Assembly: GCF_015767675.1 (NCBI RefSeq)
Contig: NZ_CP065217.1
Location: forward strand, 2,232,001 to 2,296,000
Source: Vibrio navarrensis
Lineage (GTDB): Bacteria; Pseudomonadota; Gammaproteobacteria; Enterobacterales; Vibrionaceae
Length of the DNA: 64,000 bases
Reading direction: 5' to 3'
Shown here in pieces: positions 25,569 to 37,488 of the stretch. Made by a program: the position numbers and the translations under genes. Under the pieces are notes generated by a model. The model saw only the letters and a program-made list of their open reading frames with translations. It searched no databases and was not told the DNA's origin. Position 1 is the first letter of the stretch. The number at the start of each line of letters is the position of its first letter.

Positions 25569-27038
<1,470 letters not shown>

Positions 27039-27051
27039 GTCGCTCAGTGTT

Positions 27052-27085
27052 AAAAAAGGTTGATGTTTTTGCATCAACCTTTTTT
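27052..27085. terminator. Terminator shared by purB and the lipid operon
   Basis: AAAAAAGGTTGATG at 27052-27065 pairs with CATCAACCTTTTTT at 27072-27085; U-tracts on both strands serve purB (plus) and the DUF3833 gene (minus). Confidence 0.93.
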
Positions 27086-27101
27086 TGTTCACCAAACTTT
27101 A

Positions 27102-27653
27102 TTATTGCTTTTGGAAAAAGAGAGTAATCGTCCCTACCTCGATACCAAACTTCTTTATTTTGGTTAGATTGAACACGTGCTTGTCATCTTGACGATACAA
27201 CCAATCGTCAAAAGCAACCGTCACCGTGCCGTCATCCATTTTCAGTTCAAAGTCGTACTGCCATTGCAGTGCATTACCCTGCTCGGCGCCGTGAGCCACA
27301 CCAATAATATCGTCAGCTTCTCCTTGATACTGGCCATTCGCTAGACGGGTGATTGTCCAGATGCGCTGGTCGAGTTCGCCATCATCAAACACGAAGTCTT
27401 CCACCAGCGTAAGTTGGTTACCAGTGACTTGGCCGACAATAGTGACCTCGAATCGCCGCGTCTGCTGGCCACTGAAGTCTTGTACCATACCCCATGCGTG
27501 TGTCTTTCCTGCAAAATAGCCAAAAAGGTCAAAAGTCGGCGAGGTTGCTTTGTACTGGGTGAGATCCGTTGAACACGCACTCAACAAAAAACACAAGCAG
27601 GTGATCAGCCAGCTTTTCATCCCATTCGCTGTCAATGTCAATGTCCATTTCAT
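27102..27653 (-). CDS. DUF3833-family lipoprotein
   Basis: 183 aa. The first ATG overlaps the preceding stop codon by four bases and has AGG upstream; an internal ATG (at 27620) gives a tidier lipoprotein signal peptide, MKSWLITCLCFLLSAC. The lipobox LLSAC ends at a Cys followed by Ser, predicting outer-membrane sorting. The rest (TFDLFGYFAGKTHAWGMVQDFSGQQ, DDGELDQRIWTI, DDWLYRQDD) fits DUF3833, which is beta-rich. Last gene of the eight-gene operon; members of this family commonly accompany Cfa-like lipid genes. Function unknown, perhaps lipid binding. Confidence 0.85.
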   Translation of the reverse strand: MKWTLTLTANGMKSWLITCLCFLLSACSTDLTQYKATSPTFDLFGYFAGKTHAWGMVQDFSGQQTRRFEVTIVGQVTGNQLTLVEDFVFDDGELDQRIWTITRLANGQYQGEADDIIGVAHGAEQGNALQWQYDFELKMDDGTVTVAFDDWLYRQDDKHVFNLTKIKKFGIEVGTITLFFQKQ

Positions 27654-28234
27654 CGGCTTACCTGCCCTATCAGTTGTTGACGAAGCTGCGGATAATTACT
27701 CTGCGGCGATAACCAAATGGATAAAAAAGCGTCATTGAGCTCTTCATCGGCCACATAGCCAATCACTTCGTACTCACTTTGTGCCAAGCGTTTAAACATC
27801 AATTGCCCAGTTTGCCCGTCGGTCAAATAAGTAAGGCTATCACCCGCTTGAACATCCGGAAAGAGCTCACTGAGTACTGCTATCCAACGTTGTTGCGCCG
27901 CTTTAGCAAAACCGAGTTTTTGCCACTGCTCCTGCGTTGCTTTGAGCAGATCTTTTTGGCTGATATCGCGCAGGTAATTGATCTCCAGTGCTAATGGATG
28001 AGGGCTGACATCCGCCCCCTCTTCAAAACGCCCAGTTGAGGTCAAAAGGCGGGACTGGTAGATATCAAAAAACAGCCAGCTCAGCTGCGCCTCGCCAACG
28101 GTACGCCATTGTCGCCAATTCTGGGTATCAGCACCGCTCAGTTGCGCTTTCACCGGCAACGCAGCACTCGCCAACACGCACATCATTGCAATCAGAGTTT
28201 GCTTAACACGCGCTTTCACGAACGAAATTTTCAT
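27650..28234 (-). CDS. Chalcone-isomerase-like periplasmic protein
   Basis: 194 aa. A signal peptide (hydrophobic TLIAMMCVLASAALPVKA, cleavage near AQL) precedes a domain resembling the bacterial chalcone isomerase-like family: WRTVGEAQLSWLFFDIYQSRL, then ALEINYLRDISQKDLLKATQEQWQKLG and FKRLAQSE. Relatives of this fold bind fatty acids in plants and bacteria, so a periplasmic fatty-acid or lipid carrier is a reasonable inference. The start overlaps the preceding gene by 32 bases and the end overlaps the DUF3833 gene by four. Confidence 0.85.
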   Translation of the reverse strand: MKISFVKARVKQTLIAMMCVLASAALPVKAQLSGADTQNWRQWRTVGEAQLSWLFFDIYQSRLLTSTGRFEEGADVSPHPLALEINYLRDISQKDLLKATQEQWQKLGFAKAAQQRWIAVLSELFPDVQAGDSLTYLTDGQTGQLMFKRLAQSEYEVIGYVADEELNDAFLSIWLSPQSNYPQLRQQLIGQVSR

Positions 28235-28709
28235 TGTCGTATACCTTGAGTATGCAAAACGTTATCACTATCCACTGCATCAACAAAATGAGAGAGGTCA
28301 TCAAAAAGCCGTAACCAAACTGCACCGCGCCCAACTGCTCACCCGCGATGTAACTCAACGCTCCTGCGACGCCGCCAATCGCGCAGACTTGCGCGCGGCG
28401 AAAGCGCTTGAGAACCAAAATGAGCTGACTGGCATACCAAGCAAACAGCCACCACAAGCAGACCATCCACAGCGGTAACGCATCGGAGACAAAGTTGAGC
28501 AGCTCAACTTGCTGATTTATGCTGTCCAACACTGTGCCACTGATGGCAACTATAGCGATGCTTTTCAGCTGCCGAGGCTGGGTTTTACAGTTCCATAGCA
28601 AGGTGGCAATCACATAACCGAGCGCCACCCACTGCCAAGTCTCTTTGCCGAGCACGCACAGAAACCAACCAAGTTGGAACCAAGTCGAGACAAGCAACAA
28701 TCGCATCAT
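28203..28709 (-). CDS. DUF2878-family membrane protein
   Basis: 168 aa with four to five predicted membrane helices (LLLVSTWFQLGWFLCVLG, WVALGYVIATLLW, IAIVAISGTVLDSI, LPLWMVCLWWLFAWY, LMTSLILLMQWIVIT). It fits DUF2878, an inner-membrane family of unknown function often found beside cyclopropane-synthase-like genes. The start overlaps the stop of the methyltransferase gene by four bases. It may hold or transfer lipid substrate, but nothing in the sequence proves this. Confidence 0.83.
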   Translation of the reverse strand: MMRLLLVSTWFQLGWFLCVLGKETWQWVALGYVIATLLWNCKTQPRQLKSIAIVAISGTVLDSINQQVELLNFVSDALPLWMVCLWWLFAWYASQLILVLKRFRRAQVCAIGGVAGALSYIAGEQLGAVQFGYGFLMTSLILLMQWIVITFCILKVYDNENFVRESAC

Positions 28710-29965
28710 GCTGGCCGCTGAAAAGTCATGTGCACTGTGCTGATGGTGCGTGCTAAAAAGCCCCCTTCACAGTAGCTCAGGTAGTAGCGCCACATGCGAA
28801 TGAAGCGTTCGTCATAACCCAAAGCACGCACTTCAGTTTCGGCTTGATTAAAACGACGGTGCCACTGAGCCAAGGTTTTGGCATAGTCGAGGCCGATATC
28901 GTAAAGATCCCTCAACAGCAAGTCGCTATGTTGTGTCGTTGCCTGAGCCAACGAGGTCACGGAAGGCAAAAAGCCACCGGGGAAAATGTATTTCTGGATG
29001 AAATCCACGTTATCGCTGTAGTACTCATAACGCTGATCGGCGATGGTAATGGCCTGAATCGCCATCAGACCACCAGGTTTCAGCAGTGATTGGCAGGTCT
29101 TGATGTAAGATGGCAAGTACTGCTTACCTACCGCTTCAATCATTTCAATCGAAACCAGTTTGTCGAATTGACCGCACAGATCGCGATAATCTTGCTTGAG
29201 CAGCGTGATCTGCCCAGACAAGCCAAGCCTATCGACCTGCTGCTGAGTGTATTCATATTGCTGCTCGGAGATGGTGGTAGTGGTCACCTTACATCCGTAG
29301 TGCTTAGCCATGTAGACAGCCATCGCTCCCCAGCCTGTGCCAATTTCGATCACGTGGTCACTGGGCTTGAGTTTCAACTGTTGGCACAAACGATCCATCT
29401 TATCGATTTGCGCTTGCTCTAAGCTGTCGGTCTCCTGCTGAAAAATCGCCGACGAGTAGAGCATATTTTCATCTAGAAAAGCACGATAGAGATCGTTACC
29501 AAGATCGTAGTGCGCATGAATGTTCTTTTTCGAGTTTTGCTGGGTATTGCGATTTGCCCAGTGGGCCATTTTATACACCAGCTTGCTCAGCCAGCTGCTT
29601 TGCTCTTCCAAACCGTCTAAGGCCGCTAAGTTGAGGGCCATCAGCTTCATCAGAGCCGTCAGATCCGGGCTGTCCCACCAACCGTCCATGTAGGCTTCTC
29701 CGGCAGCAATACTGCCACCGCGTAACACACGCGAGTAAAAGCCGGGATGTTTGACTTCGATCGTCGCAACGACATTTGCCCCAGAGTGATCGTTACCCGT
29801 GGTACCAAAACGCTCGCTGCGTTCGCGACTCTCAGTATGAAAGCTTTCAATAACGGTCAGAGTGCCCGTTTCCATCTTCTGCAGACATTGGAAAATGATT
29901 CTGCGCGCCGCCTTTTGCGTGGTAGAGAGTTGACGAGGCATAACCATGGATGACGTATTTAGCAT
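28706..29965 (-). CDS. Cyclopropane-fatty-acyl-phospholipid synthase-like methyltransferase
   Basis: 419 aa with a GGAGAA ribosome-binding site. The SAM-binding motif VIEIGTGWGAMAVYMAKHYG lies around residue 205, followed by family blocks DYRDLCGQFDKLVSIEMIEAVG and YIFPGGFLPS and the C-terminal RMWRYYLSYCEGGFLARTI. N-terminal lipid-binding domain of the CFA family is present. It methylates the double bond of membrane phospholipid acyl chains. Given its partners (FAD oxidoreductase, DUF1365), it may make a branched, cyclopropane or furan-type fatty acid rather than act as the housekeeping Cfa. It overlaps DUF1365 by seven bases. Confidence 0.88.
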   Translation of the reverse strand: MLNTSSMVMPRQLSTTQKAARRIIFQCLQKMETGTLTVIESFHTESRERSERFGTTGNDHSGANVVATIEVKHPGFYSRVLRGGSIAAGEAYMDGWWDSPDLTALMKLMALNLAALDGLEEQSSWLSKLVYKMAHWANRNTQQNSKKNIHAHYDLGNDLYRAFLDENMLYSSAIFQQETDSLEQAQIDKMDRLCQQLKLKPSDHVIEIGTGWGAMAVYMAKHYGCKVTTTTISEQQYEYTQQQVDRLGLSGQITLLKQDYRDLCGQFDKLVSIEMIEAVGKQYLPSYIKTCQSLLKPGGLMAIQAITIADQRYEYYSDNVDFIQKYIFPGGFLPSVTSLAQATTQHSDLLLRDLYDIGLDYAKTLAQWHRRFNQAETEVRALGYDERFIRMWRYYLSYCEGGFLARTISTVHMTFQRPA

Positions 29966-30777
29966 GCAGAATTCTCCTTGTGCTTTTTATTTTTTGTCTC
30001 TGTTGCTGACGTTTGCTTATCTGAGTGCGAATCAGACTGGTATTTAGGATGGGAATAAAAGGGCGCCCCTTTTAGCCACAGCTTTAACGCATGCCAATAA
30101 ATACCGAACACCACTTTTACTGTCTGGCTCGGCATTTTGATCAACTGCATCAACAAGTTTCTGCTGTTGAATGGCAACGCTTTCATCGCCATGGTCGCAT
30201 CGAAGTGTTTTTCGCCTTTGTGGCACTCAAGATGAACACTCAAGTGATCACAAAGTGGTTTCAGCCGCCATTGATATTGTTGATCAAGCGGATTAAAAGG
30301 CGACACATGGAACGCTTTTTGTTGCGTCCAACCATATGTTTCATCGTCTTGATTGGCAGACACCGCATAGTAGTGGCGCTCATTCCACGGAGTATTACTC
30401 ACTTCCGCCAACATATAGCGCCAATTCCCTTCCGCGTCATGCAAGTAATAAAAATTGACCGGACTGAAATAGAGCCCGAGATAACGTAGATGACAAACTG
30501 CGATCACTTTGCCCTGGCAATCCACCCCAGTCAGTTGGCGTACTTTTTCTTGCACCGCCGTTTTCAGATCGCCGCTGCCTAGGTAGTCACTGCGTTTCCA
30601 TCTTGCCCAATGCCACCAGCGCTGGCCAAACCCCCAAACGGACTGCTGCAATGTTTCCAGTTCATCGAGATCAATCGCGGGCATAAACAGTGGGTAATTC
30701 AACGCGTGTTGTACCGGCGTAAAGCGCCTATGACGCACTGTGCCGACGTACAGCTGACTTTGGGTTGGGCTTGCCAT
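29959..30777 (-). CDS. DUF1365-family protein
   Basis: 272 aa. The start LYVGTVRHRRFTPVQHALNYPLFMPAIDLDEL and the blocks RYLGLYFSPVNFYYLHD, AEVSNTPWNERHYYAV and KAFHVSPFNPLDQQYQW are the conserved core of DUF1365. The family is nearly always coupled to an FAD-dependent amine-oxidase-like protein and a Cfa-like methyltransferase, as here. No membrane anchor is evident. Biochemical role not established; likely an accessory to lipid-tail modification. A single base separates it from the oxidoreductase gene. Confidence 0.9.
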   Translation of the reverse strand: MASPTQSQLYVGTVRHRRFTPVQHALNYPLFMPAIDLDELETLQQSVWGFGQRWWHWARWKRSDYLGSGDLKTAVQEKVRQLTGVDCQGKVIAVCHLRYLGLYFSPVNFYYLHDAEGNWRYMLAEVSNTPWNERHYYAVSANQDDETYGWTQQKAFHVSPFNPLDQQYQWRLKPLCDHLSVHLECHKGEKHFDATMAMKALPFNSRNLLMQLIKMPSQTVKVVFGIYWHALKLWLKGAPFYSHPKYQSDSHSDKQTSATETKNKKHKENSAC

Positions 30778-30778
30778 A

Positions 30779-32062
30779 TCATGCCGCTCCTTTGCGCTGC
30801 GCTTCAGATTGCGTTGCAGCAGAGATTGCTTTCACCACGTCGATCGCGCTGCGCACGCCGTCTTCGTGAAAACCGTTGTACCAATAGGCGCCGCAAAACC
30901 AAGCTTGATGTTGTCCTTGGATCTCTTCGCGACGTGTCTGGGCGGCAATCGACTGAGTGGTAAAGACCGGATGGTGATAGACAAAACGGCGCAGAATTTT
31001 GTCTTGTTGAATCGCTTCGCTGCGATTTAGCGTGACGCAAAACGTGTGCTCTGATTGGATATGCTGCAAAATGTTCATGTTGTAAGTCAGTGCAGGCAGG
31101 CGCTGCGCTTCTTCGGCATGACCATCTAAAAAATAGTTCCATGAGGCCCAAGCGGCTTTGCGTTTAGGCAATAACGATGTGTCAGAATGCAATACCACTT
31201 CATTGGCCTGGTAGGCCATATTAGACAAAATCTCTGTTTCCGCTGCGCTGGCATCCTGCAACATGTACAGCGCTTGATCGCTGTGACAGGCGAAAATCAC
31301 TTGATCGAACCACTCCGTTTGCCCATTGACATGCAGTACCACCTTGTCCGCTTGACGTACCACTTTGCTGACTGGGCTATTTAAACGAATCTTATCGGCG
31401 AAACCTTGTGTCAGCGGAGGAATATACGCCTTGGAGCCCCCCTGAATCACATACCACTGTGGGCGGTTGGTGATGTCCAATAAGCCGTGATTGAGGAAAA
31501 AACGCAAGAAGAACGTCAGCGGAAACGCGCGCATATCAGCCAAGGTCGAAGACCAGATTGCCGCGCCCATAGGCAGAATATAGTTATCACTAAAGTAGTC
31601 ACTGAAGCTATGTAACTGCAAAAACTCGCCGAGTGTCTGCACTTGCGCTGAGGAATCCTGCGCCGCCTGCTTGGCCAGACGGTTGAAGCGTAAGATTTCG
31701 CTGATAAAGCGATAAAACTGTGGCTTAAACCAATTGCGTTTTTGCGCAAACAGCGTGGTGGCGGTATGTCCGTTGTACTCCAGCCCATTGCTGTCGTTGC
31801 GCACACTGAAACTCATCTGCGTCGGCAAGCCTTGCACACCAATTTCGTCCATCATTTTCATGAAGTTGGGATAGGTGCGGTCGTTATAAACGATAAACCC
31901 AGTATCAATCGAGTAGTTCTGTCCGTCTTTTTCTATCTCCACCGTGGCGGTGTGACCACCGATATAATCGTTGGCTTCGAACAAAGTGACATCATGTTCT
32001 TTGTGCAGGTAGTAACCGCAGGTGAGGCCTGAAATGCCAGTGCCTATGATCGCAATCTTCAT
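30779..32062 (-). CDS. FAD-dependent amine-oxidase-like oxidoreductase
   Basis: 427 aa. The FAD/NAD Rossmann motif IAIIGTGISGLTCGYYL is at residues 3-19, then the dinucleotide-binding Glu and GG doublet FEANDYIGGHTATV. It belongs to the flavin amine oxidase / phytoene-desaturase-like group (NAD(P)-binding protein family) that co-occurs with DUF1365 and Cfa-type genes. A desaturase or oxidase acting on acyl chains is plausible. It overlaps the short-chain dehydrogenase gene by four bases. Confidence 0.9.
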   Translation of the reverse strand: MKIAIIGTGISGLTCGYYLHKEHDVTLFEANDYIGGHTATVEIEKDGQNYSIDTGFIVYNDRTYPNFMKMMDEIGVQGLPTQMSFSVRNDSNGLEYNGHTATTLFAQKRNWFKPQFYRFISEILRFNRLAKQAAQDSSAQVQTLGEFLQLHSFSDYFSDNYILPMGAAIWSSTLADMRAFPLTFFLRFFLNHGLLDITNRPQWYVIQGGSKAYIPPLTQGFADKIRLNSPVSKVVRQADKVVLHVNGQTEWFDQVIFACHSDQALYMLQDASAAETEILSNMAYQANEVVLHSDTSLLPKRKAAWASWNYFLDGHAEEAQRLPALTYNMNILQHIQSEHTFCVTLNRSEAIQQDKILRRFVYHHPVFTTQSIAAQTRREEIQGQHQAWFCGAYWYNGFHEDGVRSAIDVVKAISAATQSEAQRKGAA

Positions 32063-32802
32063 GCTTGATCCTTTTTGTTAAACAGCAGTTTTGACGTTAG
32101 CCACCTTTGCCATCGATAAGGCAAGCAAGCAATTAAGCGTAGGATGGTGGTAAAGCCCGCAGGGAAATAGAGGTACTCTTTACCCGCATTCAGTTGAGCT
32201 CGAATGGATTGTGACGCTTCATCGACCGATATCATCATCGGCATAGCAAAGGTGTTTTTATCGGTCAAAGGTGTTTGTACAAACCCAGGAAAAACCACCG
32301 AGACAGCGATACCTTTGGGTTGCAAATCCAGAGCTAAGCTTCTGGCAAAGTAGCTCACTGCAGCTTTCGACGCGCCATAAGCTTCTGCTCTTGGTAGCGC
32401 AAGCTCTGAGGCAATAGAGCCAACAATCACTAATCGATGCCCTGCTTGAAAGTGATGCTGGCAAGCCTCAATGCAGTTCACCACGCCCATCACGTTCACA
32501 TTCATCACTCTTGCCACCAATTTGGCATCTACTACGCCATGGTCGAGGTATTCGCAATCACCAGCGTTGAAAATCCACATACTTGGGGTAAAAGGCAGAG
32601 CCGCCAAAGTCTCCTTCGTCTGCTCGTAGTCGGTGACGTCAAATTGCAAGCAGGAAATACGGGGGCTGTATGCCGCCAGCTCATTCAATGCCGCTTGGTT
32701 ACGCCCACACGCAATCACATCAACGCCACTCGCCGCGTAATTTTGGGCAAGTTTTTTGCCGATGCCTGAAGTCGCGCCAGTAATGAAAACCGCTGTATTC
32801 AT
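32059..32802 (-). CDS. Short-chain dehydrogenase/reductase
   Basis: 247 aa, classical SDR. Cofactor motif TGATSGIGK (residues 8-16), NAG motif in WIFNAGD (around 78), catalytic Ser in VGSIASELALPRAEAYGASKAAVSY with the YxxxK pair (around 130-150). ACGRNQAAL after strand 2 suggests NADP preference. The C-terminal stretch TTILRLIACLPYRWQRWLTSKLL is hydrophobic/basic and could touch membrane. The substrate is unknown; it is the second gene of the lipid operon. Confidence 0.9.
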   Translation of the reverse strand: MNTAVFITGATSGIGKKLAQNYAASGVDVIACGRNQAALNELAAYSPRISCLQFDVTDYEQTKETLAALPFTPSMWIFNAGDCEYLDHGVVDAKLVARVMNVNVMGVVNCIEACQHHFQAGHRLVIVGSIASELALPRAEAYGASKAAVSYFARSLALDLQPKGIAVSVVFPGFVQTPLTDKNTFAMPMMISVDEASQSIRAQLNAGKEYLYFPAGFTTILRLIACLPYRWQRWLTSKLLFNKKDQA

Positions 32803-33224
32803 TGCCCTAGCCTCTTTTTAATCGCCTTAATCACACTGCCGAGCAGCGGTAGATGTTCATAAAGCATTTCGCCAAGATCAAAGTAGTCGCGGTGATAAAT
32901 CACCTTACCCTCAGAAAAATGCAGATGAGAAACGCCCTGCACTTCAATCGCACAGCCTTTTTTGAGCTTGGGGTGTTGCAGTGTCATGGTCCAGGTAATA
33001 AAACCTCTGTCTTCCACCTGGCAGCGCTCATGAATAGAGAAATCACAGCGAATCACATTGCGATACAAAGCCTGAAAGTAATGGAAGAGATTGGAAAAAC
33101 CTTCGAGACGATGCGCAGCATCTTCAAAAACCACGTCTTGGTGGTAAATCTGCTCAAGTAAAAACAGATTGTCCTTACTCAAGGTTTGATAACATTGCGC
33201 CACCCGTGATACATCCATTAACAC
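32799..33224 (-). CDS. NTF2-like (SnoaL-type) protein
   Basis: 141 aa. The compact alpha+beta sequence (YHQDVVFEDAAHRLEGFSNLFHYFQALY; WTMTLQHPKLKKG; GVSHLHFSEGKVIYHRDYFDLGEML) is typical of the nuclear-transport-factor-2 / SnoaL fold family, which includes isomerases, hydratases and simple ligand binders. First gene of the operon with GGGAGG ahead of its ATG. It overlaps the short-chain dehydrogenase gene by four bases. Genes like it head the same cluster in other Vibrio; role unknown. Confidence 0.85.
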   Translation of the reverse strand: MLMDVSRVAQCYQTLSKDNLFLLEQIYHQDVVFEDAAHRLEGFSNLFHYFQALYRNVIRCDFSIHERCQVEDRGFITWTMTLQHPKLKKGCAIEVQGVSHLHFSEGKVIYHRDYFDLGEMLYEHLPLLGSVIKAIKKRLGQ

Positions 33225-33239
33225 CGCCTCCCAGATTAG

Positions 33240-33309
33240 TTGTACAACTTTTATCTACGTACAAGATAGAACAGCTTACCAAAGTTGTACAAGAATTATT
33301 TTGTATAAG
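33240..33309 (-). promoter_or_regulatory. Promoter region with four TGTACA-like boxes
   Basis: Plus-strand coordinates: TGTACA 33241-33246 and CGTACA 33258-33263 (11 apart), TGTACA 33286-33291 and TGTATA 33302-33307 (10 apart). On the minus strand TTGTAC (33287-33292) and TATCTT (33263-33268), 18 bases apart, look like -35 and -10 elements reading into the lipid operon, so the boxes overlap the promoter. Long spacers with box repeats are typical of MerR-family control; class II LitR (light/B12-linked MerR) of Pseudomonas was reported to bind a TGTACA-N12-TGTACA type site. The regulator here is unknown. Confidence 0.6.
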
Positions 33310-33364
33310 TTTGTTGTGCGATTTGATACGCAAAAAAGACGGGTAGAGATCACTGAATACGAAA

Positions 33365-33390
33365 AAGGCTTGGTTTTTCAACCAAGCCTT
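33365..33390 (-). terminator. Terminator of htpX
   Basis: AAGGCTTGGTT at 33365-33375 pairs perfectly with AACCAAGCCTT at 33380-33390; TTTTCG follows on the minus strand, just after htpX. Confidence 0.9.
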
Positions 33391-33413
33391 GAGTAAGAGA
33401 AGATGCACTGGAG

Positions 33414-34283
33414 TTAGAACTGTCCACCACGCAGAGCAGAGATTCGTTTATCCAGTGGCGGGTGGCTCATCAGCAGTTCAGTCAGCGACTGTTTACCATT
33501 GATGCCAAACGCCATCATGGTGCCATCCAGTTTCGACTCTTGGCTGATCTTCAAACGCTCCAGCGCCGCAATCATTTTCTCTTTACCCACTAAGCGAGCC
33601 GCGCCTGCATCAGCGTGGAACTCACGGTGGCGGCTGTACCACATGGTGATAAAGCTAGCGAGGAAACCAAAGACCAACTCCAGAGCGATAGAGACACCAA
33701 AGTAGACCATCATATTGCTGCCTTCGCCCTCTTCATCGTCGTTTGAAGCCACTAGATTGGCAATAAATCGCGATAGGAAGATAACAAAGGTGTTCACTAC
33801 GCCTTGCATTAACGTCATGGTCACCATATCGCCATTGGCAATATGGCTCACTTCATGGGCCAATACCGCTTCAGCTTCATCACGGGTCATGTTATGCAAC
33901 AGCCCGGTTGAAACAGCCACCAGTGAATCATCACGTTTCGCCCCTGTGGCAAACGCATTGATGTCTGGTGAATCGTAGATGGCCACCGTCGGCATGCCAA
34001 TGCCCGCCTGCTGCGCCTGACGGCTAACCGTTTGCAGCAACCAATGTTCGGTTTCGTTACGTGGGCTTTCAATCACCATGCCGCCAACAGAGCGCAATGC
34101 CATGCTCTTTGACATCATCAGCGAGATGAACGCACCACCAAAACCAAACACCGCCGCCATAACCAGTAACCCGGATAGGCTACCCGGTTTCATTCCGGTA
34201 ACGGCGTAAACAATATTCAACACTAAGCTCAGTACCAATACGACAGCTAGGTTGGTGATTAAGAACAACATGACTCGCTTCAT
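33414..34283 (-). CDS. htpX: Membrane zinc metalloprotease HtpX
   Basis: 289 aa, M48B family. Two N-terminal membrane helices ([23 protein letters not shown] and [19 protein letters not shown]), the zinc motif HEVSH in [14 protein letters not shown] (around residue 142), two more hydrophobic segments, and the third zinc ligand Glu in [15 protein letters not shown] (around 225). It degrades misfolded membrane proteins together with FtsH. Stress control (CpxR or heat shock) is usual but no clear CpxR box was seen upstream. Confidence 0.96.
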
Positions 34284-34844: not shown

Positions 34845-35528
34845 TTATGCACTAAGCAATACTGTTACATCAATGTACTTACCCAAATCTTTTCGTTTTG
34901 CCTTGGGAATATAAGGAATTTCTCCGAGCTTAGGCACCGCTAACCGCGTTTCTAACATCTCAATGATGTCGGCATAGTGTTCGGTCCCCGGATTCACTCG
35001 ATTAGCCACCCAGCCAATCAGATTCAAGCCATCGGATTTGATTACTTCTGCCGTCAACAAAGCGTGACTTAAACAACCCAACTTGATACCGACCACCAAA
35101 ATAACGGCGAGTTGCTCTTGTTGCACCCAAGTAGACAAACTTTCTTCATCTGAGATGGGCACACGCCAACCGCCAGCGCCTTCGACTAACACCACATCGG
35201 CATTTTGCTTATGCTGCGCCAATTTGTTGCTTAGAAGGGCGTAGTCGATGGTGACCTGTTCATGTTTCGCCGCAATATGAGGAGAAGCGGGTAGTTCAAG
35301 CGCATACGGATTAACATCCTCATAGGCAACGTCAACCGTTGCAGCGGCTTGCAAATGCAGCGCATCGGAATTTCGCCAACCTTCTGCGGTTTTTTCACTG
35401 CCCGCAGCCACGGGCTTGTAACCGATCGTTTTTACCTCTCTCGCTGCCAACGCATGAAGAATGGCTTTTGAAGCCACGGTTTTGCCAACATCGGTATCCG
35501 TACCTGCAACAAAAAATGCCCTACTCAT
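34845..35528 (-). CDS. bioD: Dethiobiotin synthetase
   Basis: 227 aa from the ATG giving [18 protein letters not shown]; the longer frame is rejected because ATGA overlap with bioC marks the start. ATP-dependent ring closure of DAPA to dethiobiotin. P-loop GTDTDVGKT (residues 8-16), metal and carbamate site [14 protein letters not shown] (around 112). Last gene of bioBFCD. Confidence 0.95.
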
Positions 35529-36334
35529 ATCTCTATAACCCCTAAACAAACCTTATAACTGGCCGGTACATGCCCCAGATGGTTTTGAAATGTTTGATAC
35601 TCGCGCTCAACCTGCGTCAATACCTTGCGGCTGGTTAAACCATGTGAACGACCACTTACGTGATTCGCCCCAATACCTTTGAGATCTCGCATCACGGCAA
35701 ACGCTGATGGGTACCAAACTGTGATGTCGGTCAAGTCTAGATGATGGTTATGGCAATGAGATTGCGCTAACGCAATTTTTACCTGATTGGCAGAGATGAA
35801 ATGGTTGACGTGTTGATATACATCAATTTTTTTCCACGCGGTTTTCAGCTCCAGCAGTGAACCATCCAGCAATGTGGAGAAAAACGCCGTGCCTTTTGGC
35901 TTGAGCACGCGTTTGATTTCTCTTAACGGATAGGCCAAATCCTGACACCACTGCAAAGCCAGGCTGCTAAAAACGTAATCAAATTCAGCGGCGTAAAAAG
36001 GCAAAGCTTCGGCATCAGCAACCTGATAGGTGACGCGCCAATCGCCACAACGTTTGCGAGCCGTTGCTAACATCTGTGACGAGAGATCAGCGCACACCAC
36101 CGAAGCTCCCCTATCACGCAGCAACTCTGAGAAATAGCCAGTACCGCAGCCTAGATCTAAAACACGCCGCCCAGTGAGGTCTTCAGGCATTTTCTCTAGT
36201 AACCGGTGGCCAACATCACGCTGAAACGCTGCGTGTTGGTCGTAAGTTTTCGCAGCTTTACCAAACGCCAATGCAATCGCCTGTTTATCGCTATTGGCAG
36301 TGTCGGATAATAATACACTTTCTGCTTGCTTCAA
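35525..36334 (-). CDS. bioC: Malonyl-[acyl-carrier protein] O-methyltransferase
   Basis: 269 aa starting at TTG in a TTGA overlap with the bioF stop, with GGAGAG at good spacing. It methylates malonyl-ACP to disguise it for pimeloyl synthesis. SAM motif [15 protein letters not shown] around residue 60, then DAEALPF and [10 protein letters not shown], typical of BioC. Translationally coupled to both neighbours. Confidence 0.93.
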
Positions 36335-37488
36335 TTGCTCTCTCCCATCGCCTGCAGCAAACTGCGAGCCAGCACTCTAAGTTGCTCGGCACTGTGGTTA
36401 GCGGTGAGGGTAATTCTCAAACGCGAAGTTCCTTGCAAAACCGTTGGCGGACGAATCGCCGTCAGCCATAAGCCTTGCTGTCGACAGTGATCAGAGATAG
36501 CCATCGTGCGTTGTGCATCGCCTATAATCCAAGGTTTTATTGGTGTCGATGTATCCACGTAACCCGTCTCATTTTTCAGCAACAGAGCATACGTTTGTTG
36601 CAACTCATCTAACTTTTCTCTTCGCCAACGTTGCGTACGTATCATCTCAATCGCGTGTGTTAAGGCAAACGCCTGAGCGGGTGGAATCGCCGTCGAATAG
36701 ACATGATGACGGGCAAATTGGGCCAGATAGTCGCCAGTGGATTGGTCGCATAAGATCGCCGCACCGGACAAGCCGAACGCTTTGCCAAAAGTGACCACCA
36801 AAAGCTCTGGTTTAATCGCAGCCAGATCGCAACTGCCCCGCCCCTCCTCACCAAGCACGCCAATGCCGTGCGCATCATCGATCGCCAGCCAAGCGTTTTT
36901 TTGCTTGGCGACCTGAGCGATGTTTGCCAACGGAGCGAGATCGCCATCCATACTGAAAACGCCCTCAGTAACCACAAGGCTGCGCCCTTTGGCATCCAGA
37001 AAAGTATCGAGATGATGAGTGTCGTTATGCTTCCACCGTTTCATCGTCGCGGGCGAAAGGTGGCCAGCTTCCTGCAAAGAGGCGTGATTAAGTTTATCTT
37101 GGTAAAGAAAATCGCCTTTTTCTAACAAACTGAACAACATGGCTTGATTGGCCGCAAAGCCCGAGCCAAACAAGATGGCCCGTTCAAAGCCTAACCAATC
37201 ACATAAGGCTGCTTCGAGGTTGCTGTGCGCCGGGGAAAACCCCGTCACTATCGGCGACGCACCACTGCCACAGCCGTATAAACTCAGTCCTTGCTGCCAT
37301 GCGCGTACTAGCGACTGGTCGTTTGCTAAGCCGAGATAATCATTGGCAGAGAAGTTGATATAGCGTTTGCCATCACATTCGAGCTCGGTTTGGTTGCCAG
37401 AGAAAATCACCTGAGTGCGCCGGCTCAAACCTTGCTGCGCTCTTTGCGAAAGCGCGCCTTCAATTCTGGACTTAAACGCTGGCGTCAT
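36331..37488 (-). CDS. bioF: 8-amino-7-oxononanoate synthase
   Basis: 385 aa, PLP-dependent alpha-oxoamine synthase joining pimeloyl-ACP and L-alanine. Landmarks: [13 protein letters not shown] (around 46), [10 protein letters not shown] (around 110), [16 protein letters not shown] (around 203) and the PLP-lysine segment [16 protein letters not shown] (around 230). Its ATG overlaps the end of bioB by 17 bases. Confidence 0.96.

Follow-up and report, generated by a model that had tools for sequence, protein, structure and literature searches.

What do the eight overlapping genes at positions 27102-33224 of this 64,000-nucleotide stretch of the Vibrio navarrensis genome (hereafter the window) make, and what switches them on? 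The open reading frame (ORF) list and the Pfam matches place all eight on the minus strand with successive overlaps of 4, 4, -1, 7, 4, 32 and 4 bases, exactly as given in a preliminary description of this DNA, which had proposed a single transcription unit for membrane-lipid modification, akin to loci of RpoE-ChrR regulons. Our answer is that they probably form one operon of a sigmaE-ChrR/MerR photo-oxidative-stress regulon, the core of which converts acyl chains of membrane phospholipids first to methyl-branched and then to furan fatty acids.

The core is a trio encoding, in this order, a flavin adenine dinucleotide (FAD) oxidoreductase (30779-32062; Pfam Amino_oxidase, 2.8e-22), a DUF1365 protein (29959-30777; PF07103, 4.7e-79) and a Cfa-like S-adenosylmethionine-dependent methyltransferase (28706-29965; CMAS, 8.9e-83). 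By family these are UfaD-like, UfaO-like and UfaM-like, the first two being a predicted methyl-acyl desaturase and a predicted furan-forming oxygenase. UfaM methylates cis-vaccenate, UfaD desaturates the product and UfaO, a DUF1365 protein, inserts an oxygen derived from O2; in Rhodopseudomonas palustris UfaD, UfaO and UfaM are encoded by RPA2571-2570-2569, and this trio is sufficient for furan acid production in Rhodobacter sphaeroides (PMC7380195). Judged by locus number, the R. palustris genes stand in the same order as in the window, so that the match in family and order supports the proposed role in membrane-lipid modification. Furthermore, a gammaproteobacterial UfaM, from Halomonas, yields a furan-fatty-acid intermediate when expressed in E. 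coli (PMC12089945). In line with the description of UfaD as an FAD/NAD-binding protein related to carotenoid desaturases (PMC7380195), the FAD protein of the window also matches Pfam NAD_binding_8 and gives carotene-desaturase-type NCBIfam matches, every one below its cut-off; its nearest solved structure is the amine oxidase LkcE (4e-46). The DUF1365 protein carries the family domain by which UfaO is described, and His16, His135, His157, Glu125, Tyr137 and Lys154 are each conserved in at least 95% of 165 rows; that the three histidines and the glutamate could bind a metal is a guess from this conservation. Its structure is predicted well (predicted local distance difference test score, pLDDT, 89.6), and structure comparison, with a calycin-type beta-barrel as the fold in question, found no convincing match or clear relative among known structures.

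The gap upstream of the operon points to a link of these genes with light and oxidants. A sigmaE-ChrR promoter motif, TGATC-N17-CGTAT, lies on the minus strand at 33326-33352 and is the sole exact match in the window to the consensus TGATC-N16-18-CGTAW (Tardu et al.); because 0.64 matches are expected by chance over the whole window, it is the position of the motif, in the right gap and on the right strand, that counts. Genome-wide, the motif is matched 55 times as against 9 for the reversed pattern, promoter and coding matches being pooled. We then examined 29 congeneric loci (L210-L238, the window's own locus excluded), the best 29 of 57 other congeneric matches, a set whose counts favour closer congeners because it was picked by score. 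The exact motif recurs upstream in 19 of them (dinucleotide shuffles: mean 0.05, maximum 1), with a highly variable spacer sequence. In eight of the remaining ten the last base alone differs, TGATC-N17-CGTA being followed there by C or G (in L232 and L235 at a shifted place); L228 and L236 fit neither form.

Two MerR-type boxes sit between this motif and the operon start, both on the minus strand: a distal box, TATACA-N10-TGTACA (33286-33307), and a proximal box, TGTACG-N11-TGTACA (33241-33263). The pattern TRTACA-N10/11-TGTAYA has three sites in 5.1 Mb, of which the distal box is one and the other two precede RudS-merR-phr, and its reversed control has none; since the pattern was derived from these sites, the count shows its specificity and is not a discovery in itself. 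The proximal box carries one mismatch and so falls outside the three. Among the 29 congeners, 21 have the exact pattern upstream (0.01 in mononucleotide shuffles, the sole shuffle type used).

Candidate regulators for both kinds of site are encoded in the same genome. A Lon-like-rpoE-chrR cluster (L262) lies on the first contig; its ChrR matches the cupin family, its sigma factor has sigma-70 region 2 and 4 domains, and its rpoE is preceded by a version of the motif with one mismatch, TGATC-N17-CGTAC. The second contig carries a RudS-merR-photolyase cluster (L259) with two MerR-type boxes upstream, in which the RudS-type protein combines 2-thiouracil desulfurase and DUF1722 domains and the MerR protein matches the MerR helix-turn-helix and MlrA C-terminal models. 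Published observations on relatives agree with this arrangement. VC1122 of V. cholerae was found in 2017 to be up-regulated by blue light, with VC1118 among the responding genes (Tardu et al.), and ChrR and a MerR-like protein are reported to mediate the blue-light response of that species; VC1123 is placed in the RegPrecise PhrR regulon (PMC12971978), and furan-acid genes are described as part of the core sigmaE-ChrR regulon. Thus the link to RpoE-ChrR proposed in the preliminary description is supported both by the promoter motif with its footprint in congeners and by the adjacency of rpoE-chrR in relatives, described below. The PhrR of PMC5343134 bears a TyrR-family name and is a different regulator from the photolyase-linked PhrR. 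A second photolyase-family gene of the same genome lies beside an SDR (short-chain dehydrogenase/reductase) gene (L260, contig 1 near 1247424); an exact sigmaE-ChrR motif stands 42 bases before its stop-to-stop frame, the first ATG of which comes 342 bases into the frame. This locus recalls cry1 of V. cholerae, reported to be under RpoE/ChrR control.

How constant is the grouping? The class sample comprised 184 gammaproteobacterial genomes, that of the window included, in which DUF1365 occurs in 55 genomes, DUF3833 in 32, DUF2878 in 33 and Chalcone_3 in 58. DUF3833 is accompanied by DUF1365 in 30 of its 32 genomes (Fisher p 4e-17), DUF2878 in 24 of 33 (p 2e-8) and Chalcone_3 in 33 of 58 (p 1e-7), all three p values ignoring kinship; the distance is at most 12 kb in 25 genomes for DUF3833 and in 19 for DUF2878. 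The extra members are therefore not particular to this locus. At the 54 DUF1365 loci other than our own, the full trio is present at 52, and the genes around DUF1365 include the FAD enzyme (53), the Cfa-like protein (53), SDR (32), DUF3833 (23), NTF2-like (21), DUF2878 (18) and chalcone-like (18). Gene labels come from single-query or small profiles, so that absences are weak.

Within the genus the grouping is tighter: an NTF2-like gene is found in 58 of 61 sampled genomes, and the exact order of all eight genes recurs in 26 of 29 congeneric loci fetched at length. This set combines L239-L258, which are 20 of the 21 lowest-scoring congeneric matches, with nine picked closer loci, L263-L271, seven of whose genomes also contribute to the promoter set. 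Of the three exceptions, one has DUF1365 split over two frames (L240, by sequencing error or decay) and two lack the chalcone-like and DUF3833 labels. Beyond the genus, the same eight genes come after RudS-MerR-phrB in Salinivibrio kushneri, where the seventh is annotated as hypothetical and is chalcone-like by profile, and after rpoE-chrR-RudS-phrB in Pseudoalteromonas sp. Bsw20308. Because the exact order recurs in congeners, Salinivibrio and Pseudoalteromonas, the eight-gene grouping exceeds chance.

Two arrangements occur in the genus. In the first, htpX-operon-purB, which is that of the window, MerR-type boxes lie upstream; in the second, rpoE-chrR-RudS-phr-operon, no MerR label is near and a Lon-like gene frequently stands first. 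Of the 20 loci L239-L258, which belong to more distant congeners, 18 show the second arrangement and two are of the htpX-purB kind. In 17 of these 20 loci a sigmaE-like match lies 192-245 bases upstream of the NTF2-like gene; we took it as probable coding sequence and did not count it, because its spacer is much less varied and it is located where the photolyase should end.

We also examined 79 loci, mostly from Rhodobacterales and other alphaproteobacteria, obtained from a scan that kept the best 80 of 116 relatives; R. sphaeroides and R. palustris both lie outside this set. The trio is present in 66, SDR in 72 and Cfa in 67, and an rpoE or chrR marker stands near 42, often divergent from FAD-DUF1365. 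The clusters continue with Cfa, chalcone-like, MFS_2, DUF3833 and SDR genes in varying subsets; an uncultured Lentibacter (L146) carries all these labels, its chalcone-like protein without a Pfam match. These loci (L095-L173) also contain a TspO-like gene in 27 of the 79 cases and a fasciclin-domain gene in 8.

Taken together, these data suggest the following sequence of events. Blue light or reactive oxygen species (ROS) would inactivate ChrR and release sigmaE, while the boxes would be the target of the MerR-type protein whose gene accompanies those for RudS and photolyase on the second large contig. The Cfa-like enzyme would then methylate cis-vaccenoyl chains (the UfaM step), the FAD enzyme would desaturate the methylated chain to a methyl-diene (the UfaD step) and the DUF1365 protein would insert O2-derived oxygen, closing the furan ring (the UfaO step). 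The resulting furan acyl chain would act as a scavenger of radicals or singlet oxygen and, as in R. sphaeroides, might in turn influence the turnover of ChrR. The SDR, NTF2-like, DUF2878, chalcone-like and DUF3833 proteins would be accessories, and our best guess for the last two is lipid binding or carriage on the periplasmic side.

The five accessory genes differ in how much can be said of them. The operon begins with a SnoaL/NTF2-like gene (32799-33224; SnoaL_2, 5.4e-14), which probably starts at ATG 33218, a likelier start by eye than GTG 33224. It is followed by the SDR gene (32059-32802; adh_short, 6.9e-37), the product of which passes the NCBIfam NF004765 cut-off (422.6 vs 406). The two appear to travel together, the NTF2-like gene lying within 1.2 kb of a same-strand SDR in 19 of the 21 class-sample loci that bear it. 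Behind the trio come DUF2878, a small hydrophobic and presumably membrane protein (28203-28709; PF11086, 8.2e-30), and a chalcone-isomerase-like protein with an apparent Sec signal, read by eye (27650-28234; Chalcone_3, 6e-7, barely above threshold at 30.1 bits against a cut-off of 27). In four other gammaproteobacterial loci (L033, L054, L058 and L063), DUF2878 stands directly behind a second, very divergent Cfa-like gene that is not the trio's own, and DUF2878 may be a general partner of Cfa-type methylases. VC1123, the DUF2878 protein of V. cholerae, has been deleted, with strong effects (ompU up, ompT down) that its authors read as regulation (PMC12971978); the phenotype would also fit an action of the DUF2878 protein on the envelope.

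The last gene encodes a DUF3833 protein with the lipobox LSAC (27102-27653; Pfam and structure model). Its start may instead be the second ATG, at 27620, read by eye, which would improve the spacing to the lipobox at the cost of the final overlap. From 13 sequences the protein was modelled as a ten-stranded barrel (pLDDT 95.6). As expected of a calycin-type barrel, its matches stand well above background and include a designed barrel, BFA1, nitrobindins and spirocyclases; the likeness to fatty-acid-binding proteins is more distant. A lipobox-like motif, on a loose pattern, is present in 51 of 66 DUF3833 rows. Lipid binding by DUF3833 is plausible on the strength of this model, and a lipocalin-type gene (Lipocalin_2), found in 8 of the 54 class-sample loci, is perhaps a stand-in for it.

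The R. sphaeroides operon appears to hold two of these accessories. In the annotation, RSP_1091-1087 comprises two proteins of cyclopropane-synthesis type, then a GPH symporter, a hypothetical protein and an SDR. The hypothetical one, RSP_1088, is 186 residues long (PMC7380195). By position and length we infer that RSP_1088 should be DUF3833, and position likewise makes the window's SDR the counterpart of RSP_1087; DUF3833 lies between the core and SDR, in the position of RSP_1088, in Rhodobacterales loci such as L132 and L153. More speculatively, and with far less confidence than we place in the core pathway, blue light may lead marine vibrios to form furan phospholipids whose furan chain the five accessories move or present toward the outer membrane, with DUF2878 in the membrane and lipid binders of chalcone-isomerase fold and calycin-barrel type in the periplasm and at a membrane. 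If so, such a handling module would extend photo-protection to the envelope, and furan acids would enter marine food webs from heterotrophic bacteria.

Does the operon instead make cyclopropane fatty acids, with an ordinary Cfa synthase helped by the FAD and DUF1365 proteins? The Cfa-like protein does belong to the CMAS family, is 37% identical to E. coli Cfa and retains its Glu239, Ile268, Tyr317 and Cys354, and VC1122 was termed a putative cyclopropane fatty acid (CFA) synthase by Tardu et al., which matches the usual annotation. However, it scores below the NCBIfam Cfa equivalog cut-off (310.6 vs 400 bits), Cys139 of E. coli Cfa is replaced by Ser, and of Glu239, His266 and Tyr317, residues of the bicarbonate site, it keeps Glu and Tyr with Gln304 in the place of His266, which in E. 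coli Cfa is described as one of three bicarbonate side-chain ligands. The change goes with genomic context: Gln occupies this position in 145 of 146 rows adjacent to DUF1365 (a geometric label; the remaining row, L079, has His) as against 4 of 24 others, 20 of which have His (rows under 330 residues dropped). In a tree of 117 rows (those more than 75% identical thinned), the operon proteins cluster with the window protein, apart from E. coli Cfa (Shimodaira-Hasegawa-like approximate likelihood-ratio test, SH-aLRT, 97; a quick method with no bootstrap), and the four non-adjacent Gln rows (L053, L105, L118 and L129) fall within the operon clade. Fourteen extra Cfa-like rows make up a separate clade.

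Cotton cyclopropane synthases are reported to have Gln at the His266 position (Q737, I729 and Q734 are printed for the three), and two of the three also share the Cys139-to-Ser change. We therefore dropped His266-to-Gln as a marker of non-cyclising chemistry and kept it as a clade marker, and, since the cotton enzymes are also without the His, the bicarbonate-ligand feature is not strict for Cfa. Furan is favoured over cyclopropane as the probable product of the window's trio because homologues of UfaD and UfaO constantly accompany the Cfa-like protein. This steady association, together with the separate clade, makes cyclopropane as the end product unlikely.

Less probable still is a pathway that ends at a methyl-branched, possibly diunsaturated chain, from which the SDR and NTF2-like proteins would lead to another oxidised lipid and not to furan. 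It would account for the five extra genes, two of them enzyme-like (SDR and SnoaL-like), being kept with the trio in the 26 congeneric loci of conserved order. The trio of R. palustris, however, suffices for furan acid by itself, and SDR is present yet dispensable in the R. sphaeroides operon: deletion of RSP1087, RSP1088 or RSP1089 is reported to leave the fatty-acid profile unchanged, so that all three are dispensable for synthesis in that species (PMC7380195). That the operon is mainly regulatory, its proteins acting on ChrR turnover or envelope signalling with the lipid secondary, is very improbable, for while RSP_1090/1091 are reported to be required for full RpoE activation and ChrR proteolysis under singlet oxygen and the VC1123 deletion alters ompU/ompT expression, lipid chemistry has been demonstrated for the same two Rhodobacter proteins (PMC7380195).

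Returning to furan synthesis under sigmaE-ChrR/MerR control, several observations weigh against it. The Gln signature of the operon clade does not fix the product, because the cotton cyclopropane synthases carry the same Gln, and the apparent kinship to the assayed Rhodobacter and Rhodopseudomonas enzymes is one of family, gene order and regulation and not of direct alignment. The accessory families also occur apart from the pathway, DUF1365 being absent from 2 of 32 DUF3833, 9 of 33 DUF2878 and 25 of 58 Chalcone_3 genomes. All eight families are found together in only 3 of the 54 class-sample loci. Any of four regulator or photolyase markers is near at least 22 of the 54 loci (single-query searches). 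Among the 79 mostly alphaproteobacterial loci, 12 have DUF3833, 5 a chalcone-like and 3 an NTF2-like gene, and no DUF2878 was found; the chalcone-like, NTF2-like and DUF2878 genes are therefore features of the gammaproteobacterial form and not of the pathway itself. In Stenotrophomonas maltophilia, where a ChrR-controlled cluster contains two Cfa-type genes, sigmaE-ChrR activation is reported to have raised tolerance to superoxide, not to singlet oxygen. Finally, among the open-licence PMC papers listed, no title on a furan acid from Vibrio was found.

The borders of the operon agree with a single transcription unit, as does the recurring exact gene order. Upstream, the terminator scan places a terminator-like hairpin behind htpX (33365-33390, minus strand). 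Downstream, a hairpin with T-runs on both strands (27052-27085) separates the operon from the convergent purB; this hairpin is read directly from the sequence and is absent from the terminator-scan list. Terminator-like sites are not in excess in the region (9, against a shuffle mean of 7.5). In the gap before the first gene the promoter scan gives no sigma-70-like site, and Rfam has no match at gathering score within 26900-33500. Upstream of htpX, minus-strand ORFs at 34845-37488 resemble bioD, bioC and bioF by eye and are ordinary.

The preliminary description had called the product and four of the eight functions undescribed; for the pathway this is not supported: UfaO and UfaD have been published (PMC7380195), VC1122 is known to be induced by blue light, and a VC1123 mutant has been reported (PMC12971978). 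The core pathway, its sigmaE-ChrR regulation, the induction of VC1122 and the assignment of VC1123 to PhrR are thus already in print; new here are the promoter anatomy, the DUF3833 barrel model, the Rhodobacter-type position of DUF3833 and the Gln of the Cfa clade. Among the open-licence PMC papers listed, DUF3833 was not found alongside DUF1365, DUF2878, UfaO, chalcone-isomerase-like or furan fatty acid; DUF3833, photolyase and cyclopropane co-occur in PMC8465259, and DUF1365 and DUF2878 in PMC10012899. We also drew on PMC5241685, PMC4336711, PMC6852236, PMC11832516, PMC3818230, PMC7074977, PMC11976125, PMC9758184, PMC9040609, PMC11387697 and PMC3132707. For a locus that in this genus has been taken to serve cyclopropane synthesis, a set of DUF genes is hereby linked with one defined chemical pathway and with two defined regulators, and it becomes testable whether non-photosynthetic marine bacteria respond to light by producing furan fatty acids. 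If they do, vibrios become candidates for a bacterial origin of the furan acids of fish, and the DUF3833 and chalcone-like proteins candidates for carriers of an oxidant-scavenging lipid.

Set beside known systems, the operon combines a shared core with local additions. The FAD enzyme, DUF1365 and Cfa-like methylase are common to the window, to RSP_1091-1087 with ufaM (RSP_2144) of R. sphaeroides and to RPA2571-2569 of R. palustris, and with the Rhodobacter operon the window further shares SDR, DUF3833 (by position) and the sigmaE-ChrR promoter. In comparison with both, the window adds the NTF2-like, DUF2878 and chalcone-like genes and the MerR-type boxes, and it is without the GPH/MFS_2 symporter present in R. 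sphaeroides as RSP_1089. E. coli Cfa has the fold family and most active-site residues in common with the window's Cfa-like protein, but differs at His266 and Cys139, in clade and in partner enzymes. In VC1118-VC1125 of V. cholerae, VC1122 is Cfa-like and VC1123 a DUF2878 protein, as in the window; the remaining tags we take, by position, to match the other window genes. The published reading of that locus is cyclopropane synthesis. In Shewanella oneidensis, cfa and photolyase lie in one operon of the RpoE2 regulon (SO_3386-SO_3374), said to hold phrB and cfa and headed by SO_3386, which is induced by RpoE2. Its promoter, containing TTGTACAAG, is of the same class as the window's; the photolyase is inside the operon there, whereas in the window's genome it is on another contig. 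The class II LitR regulon of PplR1/PmlR2 in Pseudomonas is alike in its TGTACA pair operators and light-linked genes, with an operator spacer of 12 as against 10-11 in the window's genome.

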